Below, piece by piece: positions 1,958 to 6,130 of a stretch of DNA of 36,936 nucleotides. The translations under genes were made by a program, and so were the position numbers. The notes under the pieces were generated by a model, which was given only the letters and a program-made list of their open reading frames with translations, did not search any database and was not told the DNA's origin. Positions within the stretch are counted from its first letter, which is position 1. Each line of letters starts with the position of its first letter. The DNA is from Alphaproteobacteria bacterium (GTDB lineage Bacteria; Pseudomonadota; Alphaproteobacteria; Micropepsales; Micropepsaceae), in assembly GCA_016792565.1 (NCBI GenBank), contig JAEUMK010000029.1:1-36936 (forward strand), written 5' to 3'.

Positions 1958-3340
1958 ATGCGTATGCGACTGACCTTGCTGGCAGCCTCTACGGCGGCGC
2001 TGCTCAACACCGCCGGTGCGGTTACGGTGGAGGAGATCGTCCGGCCGCAGCGCGATGCCATCGCGCATTGCGAGGATGCGCGAGCGGAGCTGGCGCGGCA
2101 GGGCGCCCTGCGGATGAAGCAACTGGAGGAGGTGAAGGCCTGGCACCAGAGCCTTGAGCAGGCGCTGGCCGACCTGATCGCCTTCCAGGAGCAGGAGTAC
2201 GAACGCGCCAAGGCCGCCGAGGCGCTGTTCGTCTCGCGCGCCGCGTCGCTGGTGGTCGAGCCGGGCGAACAGTCATGGGTGCCGCATATCGGCTGGGGCA
2301 TCTTCGGCTACTTCGAGAAGCGCCGCGACGACACCAACAAGGCGATCGCCGAGGCGGAAGGCGCGATCGAGCGCGGCGAAACCCAGTTCAACGTGCAGGG
2401 CGTCGGCTGGCTGTCCGGCAAGGCGCTGAAGGACTTGCTGGCCGCCGACGCCAAGGCGATGGCCGACCTGCAGACCGCGCTCGACACCGGCGTCTGGCAG
2501 ATCAGCTATCCCGGCCTCGGCTGGGTCAGCGGCCAGTCGCTGGCCGCCTGCAGGGCCGACAACGAGAAGCGCATCAAGGCGCTGCAGGAGCAGGTGACCA
2601 AGGGCGAGTTCCAGATCCATGTCGTGAATCTTGGATGGGTGACGCGCAATTCGCTGCAGGCCATGATCGACGGCGAGGAGAAGCGGCTGAAGCAACTCGA
2701 CGCCGACGTCGCCGCGATGACGCTGCAGATCAACCGCGCCTTTTTCGGTTGGCAGACGCTGGCCGGCGTCCACAGTCACATGGACAAGGCAAAGAAGGAC
2801 AAGGCGGCCTACGAGGCCGCGGCGGCCGCGACGATCAGCTACAACGTGCCGTCGATCGGCTGGACGACAGGCAACGATCTGGATGTGGCCATCGCCCGGG
2901 CGGAGAAGGAGGTAGCGGGCGTCCTGCAGACGGCGGGCGAGGGCAAGTATGCCGTGCCCACCGGCGTCGGCTGGCTAGACATGAACGCCATTCAGGCGGC
3001 GCTCGCCCTGCCCGATTGCCGGCCGAAGGACTCGCCCTCGCCCTGCCTGCCGCCGGAACACCGGCCGATCCTGCAGGACGGCGCGGCGCGCGTGCCGATC
3101 GCCGTTGATACCGACGTCGCCTTCCGGCAGCAGCGCATCGACCTCTTGAAGACCTATCGCGCCGAAATCGCAACGCTCGCGCAGCCGCGCATCGCGCTGT
3201 TCGATCTCGACCTTCACCAGTGGGGCCGCATGCAGGACGAGTTCACGGCCGAGGCCGGCGAGCATCGCAAGGTGATCGAGCGGAAGATCAAATGGCTGAA
3301 GGAAATCATGCAGACCGAGATACCGGGAGCAGGCGCATGA
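1958..3340 (+). CDS. Exported protein with seven Gly-Trp repeats, unknown function
   Basis: This 460-residue protein has a probable signal peptide (residues 1-21, ending NTAGA). A helical segment rich in Ala, Glu, Gln and Lys follows (about 25-95). Then come seven copies of a motif built as hydrophobic-x-[I/V]-x-x-x-hydrophobic-Gly-Trp-x-[S/T]-x-x-x-Leu, each followed by about 20 residues of likely helix. The Trp residues are at 113, 151, 189, 227, 265, 302 and 339, a spacing of 38, 38, 38, 38, 37 and 37. A C-terminal helical region (about 350-460) has two Cys near its start (354 and 363). The ATG follows CCGGAGA at good spacing. The stop overlaps the start of the DUF4424 gene, so the two are probably co-translated. 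I do not recognise the repeat. A periplasmic scaffold role is a guess from the repeat form alone. Confidence 0.8.
   Translation: MRMRLTLLAASTAALLNTAGAVTVEEIVRPQRDAIAHCEDARAELARQGALRMKQLEEVKAWHQSLEQALADLIAFQEQEYERAKAAEALFVSRAASLVVEPGEQSWVPHIGWGIFGYFEKRRDDTNKAIAEAEGAIERGETQFNVQGVGWLSGKALKDLLAADAKAMADLQTALDTGVWQISYPGLGWVSGQSLAACRADNEKRIKALQEQVTKGEFQIHVVNLGWVTRNSLQAMIDGEEKRLKQLDADVAAMTLQINRAFFGWQTLAGVHSHMDKAKKDKAAYEAAAAATISYNVPSIGWTTGNDLDVAIARAEKEVAGVLQTAGEGKYAVPTGVGWLDMNAIQAALALPDCRPKDSPSPCLPPEHRPILQDGAARVPIAVDTDVAFRQQRIDLLKTYRAEIATLAQPRIALFDLDLHQWGRMQDEFTAEAGEHRKVIERKIKWLKEIMQTEIPGAGA
2273..2986 (+). repeat. Tandem 38-residue protein repeat region (seven copies)
   Basis: The repeats span about residues 106-343 of the protein encoded at 1958-3340. 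Cores are VPHIGWGIFGYF, FNVQGVGWLSGKAL, ISYPGLGWVSGQSL, IHVVNLGWVTRNSL, INRAFFGWQTLAGV, YNVPSIGWTTGNDL and VPTGVGWLDMNAI. The DNA itself is well diverged between copies, so the array is old and kept by selection on the protein. Confidence 0.75.
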
Positions 3341-4347
3341 TGCGCGGCGTACAGGCGGCGTGGCCGCACATCGGGGCGCTTCTTGCGATTGGCGCCGTGT
3401 TCGCCGGTGCGGCGGTCGCCAATGACGGCTATGCCGGGCTGGGCGCCGGGGGCATCGAATTCGAGAAAAGCGAGACCATCGAGATGGCGGAGGAAGACCT
3501 CTATCTCAGCCGCTCGGCGGTCCGGGTCGACTATGTCTTCCGCAATACCGGCGAGGACGACGAGGACGCTTTCGTCGCCTTCCAATTGCCGCCGCTGGCG
3601 CCGATCTACGCCGAGCTGGACTACGCCCTGCCGGACGAGATGCGCAACGCGGGCCAGCTCAACTACATGCGCTTCAAGGCCTGGGCGGAAGGCGAGCCGG
3701 TCGAACTGAGCCAGGAGGTCCGCTACTACCGGCTCTGCGCCGACTGCGACGACACCGGCTGGGGCCTCGGCTTCCTGGAGCGCGACGACGAGGAGCTGAC
3801 GCAGCGCCTGACCGCGCTCGGCGTGCCCGAAAGCTACGACCTCGGCACGATCCGCGACTGGTTCGCCGGCCTGCCGCGCGCCGAACAGGCCAAGCTGAAG
3901 CGCGAGGGCATCTTCATCGACGGCGAGGCGGGGCCGGCGCCGATGTACTGGATGAGCGTGCGCTACTACTGGCAGCAGATCTTCCCCGCCGGCGAAGACG
4001 TGAGGATCTCGCACAGCTATCGCCCGGTTCTGGGCGCCAGCGTGCCGGCGATCGACGACGACATCGTGGCCGCCCACTGCATCGACGCCGGTACGATGCG
4101 GGCGATCAAGAAGGCAGGATCGCGCGTCGAGGGCCAGACCTATCTCGACTATGTGCTGACGACCGCCGGGACATGGAAGGGGCCGATCGGGACTTTCCGG
4201 ATGACGATCGACAAGGAAGAGGCGAAGGACATCGTGTCGCTGTGCGCCGAGGGCGTGCGCAAGACCGGGCCGACCACCTTCGTCGTAGAGAAGTCGGACT
4301 ATCGGCCGCGCGAGGACATCCGCATCATGTTCGTCGACGTCCGCTGA
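3337..4347 (+). CDS. DUF4424 family secreted protein
   Basis: This 336-residue protein has a signal peptide (about 1-28) and a mature N-terminus beginning NDGYAGLGAGGIEF. The segment ETIEMAEEDLYLS then AVRVDYVFRNTG is typical of DUF4424, a family of exported proteobacterial proteins whose role is not established. A CxxC pair sits at residues 134-137 (LCADC), with two further Cys in the C-terminal half. The ATG at 3337 overlaps the stop of the preceding repeat-protein gene (ATGA), with GGGAGC upstream, so it is probably translated by coupling. The next gene begins 13 bases after its stop. The tight arrangement suggests that the three secreted proteins act together, but nothing in the sequence shows a reaction. 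Confidence 0.8.
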   Translation: MMRGVQAAWPHIGALLAIGAVFAGAAVANDGYAGLGAGGIEFEKSETIEMAEEDLYLSRSAVRVDYVFRNTGEDDEDAFVAFQLPPLAPIYAELDYALPDEMRNAGQLNYMRFKAWAEGEPVELSQEVRYYRLCADCDDTGWGLGFLERDDEELTQRLTALGVPESYDLGTIRDWFAGLPRAEQAKLKREGIFIDGEAGPAPMYWMSVRYYWQQIFPAGEDVRISHSYRPVLGASVPAIDDDIVAAHCIDAGTMRAIKKAGSRVEGQTYLDYVLTTAGTWKGPIGTFRMTIDKEEAKDIVSLCAEGVRKTGPTTFVVEKSDYRPREDIRIMFVDVR

Positions 4348-4360
4348 AGGGAAATGAGTC

Positions 4361-4873
4361 ATGACAACGCATGCCATGGTCGCGCGCGCGGCCTTTGCGG
4401 CCGGCGCCTTCGCGATGGCGGGGGCGGCAACGGCGGGCGAGTGGAGCCCCTACGTCAATCCGCGCTTCGGCGCGGCGGCGGAGATTCCCGCCCGCGGCTT
4501 CACCGCCGATCCGCCGCCCGAGAACGGCGACGGCCAGCGCTGGACCTCGGACGAGGACGGCGGGACGATCGCCATCTACGGCGCCTATCAGGTGCTGGCC
4601 GACGACTTCGACGGCTACCGCACCTTCGCGCTGGAGAGCGCGCGCGAGAGCGGCGTCGAGATCAGCTATGAGCGGCGCGGCCCGGGCTGGTTCGTCTATT
4701 CCGGCATCGCGGGCGACACCATCGTCTACGAGCGGGTCGAGGAAGCCTGCGGCGGCGACACCATCGTCGCCATCCGCTTCGACTATCCCAAGAGCGCCAA
4801 GCGCCGCTGGGACCCCATCGTCAAGCACGGCGCGGCGAGCCTTGAGGCGCGGCCGTCCGAGGCGTGCCGCTAG
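4361..4873 (+). CDS. Small secreted protein of unknown function
   Basis: This 170-residue protein has a clear signal peptide (residues 1-25, ending AGAATA) followed by GEWSPYVNPRFGAAAEIP. The body reads like a conserved proteobacterial periplasmic protein with an NPRFG segment and a short Gly/Asp-rich stretch (ENGDGQRWTS) around residue 55. Two Cys in the C-terminal half (in EEACGG and SEACR) could form a disulfide. The start ATG follows AAGGGAAATGAG, and the gene is only 13 bases behind the DUF4424 gene. It is therefore the third member of the likely 1958-4873 operon. I do not know its function. Confidence 0.75.
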   Translation: MTTHAMVARAAFAAGAFAMAGAATAGEWSPYVNPRFGAAAEIPARGFTADPPPENGDGQRWTSDEDGGTIAIYGAYQVLADDFDGYRTFALESARESGVEISYERRGPGWFVYSGIAGDTIVYERVEEACGGDTIVAIRFDYPKSAKRRWDPIVKHGAASLEARPSEACR

Positions 4874-5858: not shown

Positions 5859-5898
5859 GCATTCGAACGTCGCGATCCGGCGATTGTTCAGCTTCGCC
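5859..5898. repeat. 40-bp direct repeat, copy 1
   Basis: This copy matches the one at 5967-6006 at 38 of 40 positions, starting GCATTCGAACGTCGCGATC. Each unit is itself an imperfect palindrome: on the minus strand, GAAC-AA-TCGC pairs with GCGA-C-GTTC around a six-base loop. It lies in the 356-bp gap between the secreted protein (start 5774) and the acyl-CoA dehydrogenase (end 6131). It looks like a dispersed REP-type element or a paired protein-binding site. Confidence 0.7.
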
Positions 5899-5966
5899 GT
5901 CCGGCCGGCGACGGACCCGCGGCAGGACCCAAGGCCGCGAAAAAGCAGCGGAAATCCGCCTTTACC

Positions 5967-6006
5967 GCATTCGAACGTCGCGATCTGGCGATTGTTCATC
6001 TTCGCC
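5967..6006. repeat. 40-bp direct repeat, copy 2
   Basis: This is the second copy, 108 bp after the first, with two substitutions (C/T in the loop, G/T near the end). The 68-bp spacer contains a small hairpin GCGGA-AA-TCCGC. I see nothing else in the 5775-6130 gap apart from these repeats; no convincing small gene is present. Confidence 0.7.
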
Positions 6007-6130
6007 CCCTGCCCTTCCCCGGGCCTGCCCGGCCACACCATCCGCCCACGCGCCGCACCCCCGCCCGGCGGGCAGGCGCGCATCGCATATAGGAATGTTG
6101 TCAGAATCGTTCAAGGGCGGCCGAGGCCCG

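Follow-up and report, generated by a model that had tools for sequence, protein, structure and literature searches.

A forward-strand gene (1958–3340; ATG at 1958, stop at 3338–3340) in the window, which is the whole 36,936-nucleotide stretch of alphaproteobacterial DNA analysed here, encodes a 460-residue protein carrying seven Gly-Trp repeat units. The repeats are real, ancient and diverged, and the protein and its known relatives make up a new, rare orphan family of secreted proteins, the architecture of which may be unusual. The best reading of its function, held at roughly balanced confidence, is that of a structural rod, spacer or scaffold in the periplasm.

The reality of the repeats follows from their in-register identity, from the divergence of their DNA and from an independent profile. 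The Trp residues lie exactly at 113, 151, 189, 227, 265, 302 and 339, spaced by 38, 38, 38, 38, 37 and 37 residues as given in the initial annotation, and each is directly preceded by Gly. Mean unit-unit identity within the protein is 21% in register vs 5% out of register, and the DNA of the units averages 43% identity. When a unit HMM was trained on five distant relatives alone, leaving out the window protein and the relative that is 68% identical to it, it recovered seven in-register units at residues 103–355 with a total of 164.8 bits, compared with 13.1 for the best of 2,000 shuffles; the domain scores of units 1 to 7 were 24.0, 26.5, 34.2, 38.6, 5.5, 26.1 and 15.9 bits. The claim that such regularity exceeds chance thus holds, as the HMM finds all seven units and the count of seven GW dipeptides was reached in 0/20,000 composition-preserving shuffles. 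Selection on a protein with diverged DNA, which had also been proposed, is borne out by a dN/dS of ~0.27 (dS 0.88) between the window protein and its 68%-identical relative, the two closest members, which indicates purifying selection.

The units are flanked by two long helices predicted by AlphaFold (AF2), the N-terminal one spanning residues 24–98 (2027–2251) and including Cys38, and the C-terminal one residues 368–454 (3059–3319). Between them, unit 1 (W113; 2258–2371) consists of a predicted hairpin at 105–115 and a helix at 116–138, unit 2 (W151; 2372–2485) of a hairpin at 143–153 and a helix at 154–177, unit 3 (W189; 2486–2599) of a hairpin at 181–191 and a helix at 192–214 that includes Cys198, and unit 4 (W227; 2600–2713) of a weakly predicted hairpin and a helix at 230–252, the unit as a whole covering about 221–252. 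Unit 5 (W265; 2714–2824) has its hairpin at 257–267 and its helix at 268–288, unit 6 (W302; 2825–2935) at 295–303 and 305–327, and unit 7 (W339; 2936–3049) at 333–340 and 342–349, the latter helix being shortened to about eight residues and followed by a loop with Cys354 and Cys363. All seven units are placed by repeat analysis, AF2 and the unit HMM; units 1 and 7 are divergent. Relative to the Trp position, the core of the motif consists of Gly at -1 and one of T, S, D or N at +2. The most conserved position is this Gly, which is near-invariant, rather than the Trp, which relatives replace with Y, H, P, R, E or Q, a refinement of the Gly-Trp core initially described.

A secreted, periplasmic location, as initially annotated, agrees with the signal-peptide-like N-termini of all seven family members and with the lack of any further strongly hydrophobic stretch. 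In the window protein, the predicted signal peptide (residues 1–21; 1958–2020) comprises MRMR, a hydrophobic stretch and AGA, with a cut predicted from sequence and hydropathy before V22, and the highest 19-residue hydropathy beyond it is 0.99, below membrane level. The predicted cut site, AGA|VT, has no Cys and hence no bacterial lipoprotein lipobox, and nothing was found that would anchor the protein to peptidoglycan or to one of the two membranes, which weighs against the rod or scaffold reading.

Seven family members were identified in six alphaproteobacterial genomes, and the gene is missing from most relatives searched. The closest relative is encoded on contig 50 of genome G012 (68% identity), which also carries a paralogue on contig 9 (24%). 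The Rhodobacteraceae MAG PRO13 (G835) has a member with 40% identity, and three further genomes of the same family, G899, G946 and G879, have members with 37%, 20% and 21% identity, respectively. Two well-separated clades appear in the tree: clade A, with the window protein, the G012 contig 50 copy, PRO13 and G899, and clade B, with the G012 contig 9 paralogue, G946 and G879. Clear members occur in 2/96 genomes of the order and 4/248 of PRO13's family, and in 1/385 and 1/398 genomes of the class and phylum samples, the match being the source genome itself in each case. This sparse, scattered occurrence suggests that loss or horizontal transfer has shaped the distribution. No match to the repeat protein was obtained by tblastn in plasmid and phage collections, and no relative was found among viral contigs with the family profile. 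A single-unit profile searched against the 398 genomes of the phylum found no protein other than the window protein; a weak unit match on contig 100 of the source genome covers 18 residues (E 0.0035). A candidate member in genome G048 (E 7.6e-4 over 68 residues) involved the N-terminal coiled coil alone, disappeared with the unit profile and was rejected as chance.

Changes in copy number among relatives, a point raised by the initial annotation, were not seen in any of the seven members. All align over seven unit positions, so that the copy number looks fixed, with unit 7 degenerate in two members of clade B. Unit-by-unit orthology could not be assigned from identity by itself, as same-position identity across the clades (0.24) equals that of different positions (0.23–0.25).

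The absence of a named repeat family, as first supposed, was upheld in Pfam, NCBIfam, PHROGs and PDB sequences. In none of the three family libraries did the window protein come near a curated cut-off. Searching all seven members against Pfam and NCBIfam gave scattered weak matches, most of them to coiled-coil families and each limited to one or two of the proteins. No PDB sequence was matched below E 0.4 by phmmer and profile searches, and searches of the open-access literature turned up no account of such a unit. With the AF2 model, Foldseek returned nothing at E 0.001 or better (best E 0.09) and no match among predicted viral structures. VIA-align with the better model gave Z of at most 7.4 to generic helical bundles, a value that may reflect no more than a common arrangement of long helices.

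AlphaFold reached a pLDDT of 77.7 with four sequences, and 86.2 with a pTM of 0.77 with seven. The seven-sequence model shows units of a beta-hairpin and a helix of ~23 residues between the two long helices; strands were detected for hairpins 1–3 and 5–7, and confidence is low in the signal peptide and at residues 210–226, which are likely to form a joint between two halves. The strand-turn followed by a helix, repeated seven times, that was first envisaged is thus supported by the prediction, but its solenoid or filament-like assembly is not, as nothing shows lateral stacking or polymerisation. Residues 227–460 of the model match the chemoreceptor 3g6b, a helical hairpin, across 200 residues (7.3 Å), and residues 22–212 match the chemoreceptor 2ch7 across 162 residues (5.7 Å). 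This suggests that both halves of the protein resemble extended antiparallel helical hairpins, with the unit helices in line and a terminal helix running back along them. The predicted lengths agree, at 112 Å for the N-terminal helix vs 105 Å for units 1–3, and 130 Å for the C-terminal helix vs 112 Å for units 4–7. Together with the cysteines, the match ranges and these lengths favour a model in which the unit helices lie end to end and are closed by the two long terminal helices.

The protein would thus be a Sec-exported, soluble periplasmic structural protein in which the hairpins serve as joints and point sideways, and successive helices continue in roughly one direction as a segmented rod. 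The N-terminal helix would fold back along units 1–3 and the C-terminal helix along units 4–7, so that two antiparallel helical hairpins, each roughly 11–13 nm long, would meet at the flexible residues 210–226. Within a unit, Gly at -11 would end the preceding helix, Pro-Gly at -4/-3 would form the hairpin turn, Gly-Trp at -1/0 would pack the hairpin against the helix junction, Thr, Ser or Asp at +2 would cap the next helix, and Leu or Ile at +6, +10 and +17 would form the helix face. The conserved Gly at -1 and -11, the Pro-Gly and the N-cap residue are probably best explained as determinants of the fold.

Two putative disulphides may staple this rod, Cys38–Cys198 bridging the N-terminal helix and unit 3, and Cys354–Cys363 within the turn. 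Cys38 lies 90 Å from the end of the N-terminal helix, and reaching Cys198 along the chain of units takes 81 Å of helix and two joints, which would place them at similar heights, a near match, in the end-to-end model. Cysteines in pairs are also in keeping with an oxidising compartment. Cys38 and Cys198 are jointly present in five members and jointly absent in two sister members (L005 and L044). As G879 of the same clade retains both, one joint loss is implied, and this apparent single evolutionary event counts against the support that their co-occurrence would lend to a disulphide. Cys354 and Cys363 are both confined to clade A.

If straight, the unit helices alone, with 145 residues at 1.5 Å each, would measure about 22 nm. 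This is close to the typical width of the periplasm, and a role as a ruler or spacer of the envelope is therefore possible. That the protein has a previously undescribed architecture of this kind, a disulphide-stapled segmented rod in the periplasm with hairpin joints between coaxial helices and a fixed set of seven units, is offered here as a tentative and rather unlikely proposal.

The neighbourhoods of the family members share no recurring gene, so a conserved neighbourhood was rejected, which also weighs against the rod or scaffold reading. The closest relative is flanked by genes for exonuclease VII, a MARVEL-like protein and purD, the PRO13 member by mutS and argG, the G899 member by genes for a glutamate-type dehydrogenase and DUF6151/GFA, and the G879 member by those for YebC and a GST. 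The G946 member (L049, 8502–9923) lies in the dcw (division/cell-wall) cluster, in the order mraY, repeat gene, murD, GFA, ftsW, murG. Such a position is unusual for an additional secreted protein, but the cluster also carries an unrelated GFA gene between murD and ftsW, so that this location is weak evidence. The G012 contig 9 paralogue (L018, 8460–9863) is flanked by alpha-2-macroglobulin/PBP1C and topoisomerase IB genes and is divergent to the first two, whose products are a proposed pair in envelope defence and repair (PMC4498604).

Repeated Gly-Trp hairpin-like motifs, as in the repeat protein, also occur in cell-wall-binding Trp/Gly repeats such as the choline-binding and ChW types. It is fairly unlikely, though credible, that the Gly-Trp hairpins are binding modules for peptidoglycan, a polysaccharide or a similar repeating polymer of the envelope, with the helices as mere spacers, a reading in line with seven regularly spaced aromatic hairpins and with the clade B members next to mraY and murD or to the alpha-2-macroglobulin and PBP1C genes. 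However, the frequent substitution of the Trp argues against a strict ligand site, and the better retention of Gly and turn residues suits a structural role. Moreover, the remaining neighbourhoods have no wall theme, and the known wall-binding repeats in Pfam are unmatched: no choline-binding or ChW profile matched at E 1 or better, and each hairpin of the repeat protein, unlike those repeats, precedes a 23-residue helix.

The repeat gene probably belongs to the same operon as a DUF4424 gene (PF14415, E 5e-64; 3337–4347, +), the start of which overlaps its stop by 4 bp (ATGA). A gene for a 170-residue secreted-looking protein without a family (4361–4873, +) begins 13 bases after the DUF4424 gene and is the probable third gene. 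DUF4424 has a 19-stranded beta-sandwich fold and has been proposed to act in multi-component complexes (PMC3848476); like the repeat protein it is secreted, but the folds differ and the two are unrelated. The source genome has three DUF4424 genes, compared with two in each of four congeners, and as a tandem pair is present elsewhere in it (contig 28, 2524–4604), as in the congeners, the window gene is an extra copy. The gene overlap, this extra copy beside the repeat gene and the proposed complexes would fit a role for the repeat protein as a subunit devoted to a DUF4424 complex, in which it would be the helical arm that presents DUF4424 to a target. This reading is nevertheless improbable, as the 68% relative sits among other genes with both DUF4424 genes of its genome on another contig, and no DUF4424 gene is among the identified neighbours of the remaining members. 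Under the preferred reading of an envelope spacer or scaffold, which the overlap with a gene for a secreted protein favours, DUF4424 would be a possible partner in the source organism.

The arrangement of the units has also been considered as a lateral solenoid, in which they would stack side by side. Tandem homologous units of similar alpha/beta form and constant length, seven by the independent profile, are indeed present, but end-to-end helices better accommodate the great length of both terminal helices and the distance between Cys38 and Cys198, and the structures matched are long bundles or hairpins of helices rather than solenoids, which makes side-by-side stacking quite doubtful. A relationship to alpha-helical pore-forming proteins, whose AhlB, PaxB/XaxB and MakA types head the Foldseek list and account for several top structural matches, is highly implausible given the poor Foldseek E and Z values, the 9–10 Å rmsd and the absence, after the signal peptide, of any hydrophobic segment that could insert into a membrane.

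The predicted segmented rod resembles the alpha/beta coiled coils known as beta-layers, in which a three-residue beta element with hexad or nonad spacing interrupts helices of trimeric chains (eLife 2016, PMC4786415), in that regular short beta interruptions of helices give a fibrous alpha/beta rod. It differs in that predicted two-stranded hairpins of about 11–14 residues (such as strands 143–146 and 150–153 in AF2) take the place of the three-residue element, and in that the closing helices would lie within the same chain. The cytoplasmic chemoreceptor hairpins 3g6b and 2ch7 are alike in that the two halves of the model align along their length, but these have continuous helices without hairpin joints, are cytoplasmic and bear no sequence relation.

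If the rod geometry is true, the protein would show that coaxial helices jointed by hairpins occur in nature and would be a candidate periplasmic spacer of fixed length, useful to both envelope biology and protein design; if it is false, an orphan secreted family still deserves a name. In either case, a type of repeat with no counterpart in the libraries searched comes as a small testable system with seven diverse members, a fixed copy number and predicted disulphides.

Two further features of the window were noted. The divergent gene upstream (821–1795, -) encodes a 325-residue Pro/Ala-rich protein with a sub-threshold match to LtfC (E 0.014). Downstream, between a gene for a small secreted protein and one for an acyl-CoA dehydrogenase, two copies of an element (5859–5920 and 5967–6028) with 81% identity over 62 nt lie 108 bases apart, and both begin with GCATTCGAACGTCGCGATC[C/T]GGCGATTGTTCA.
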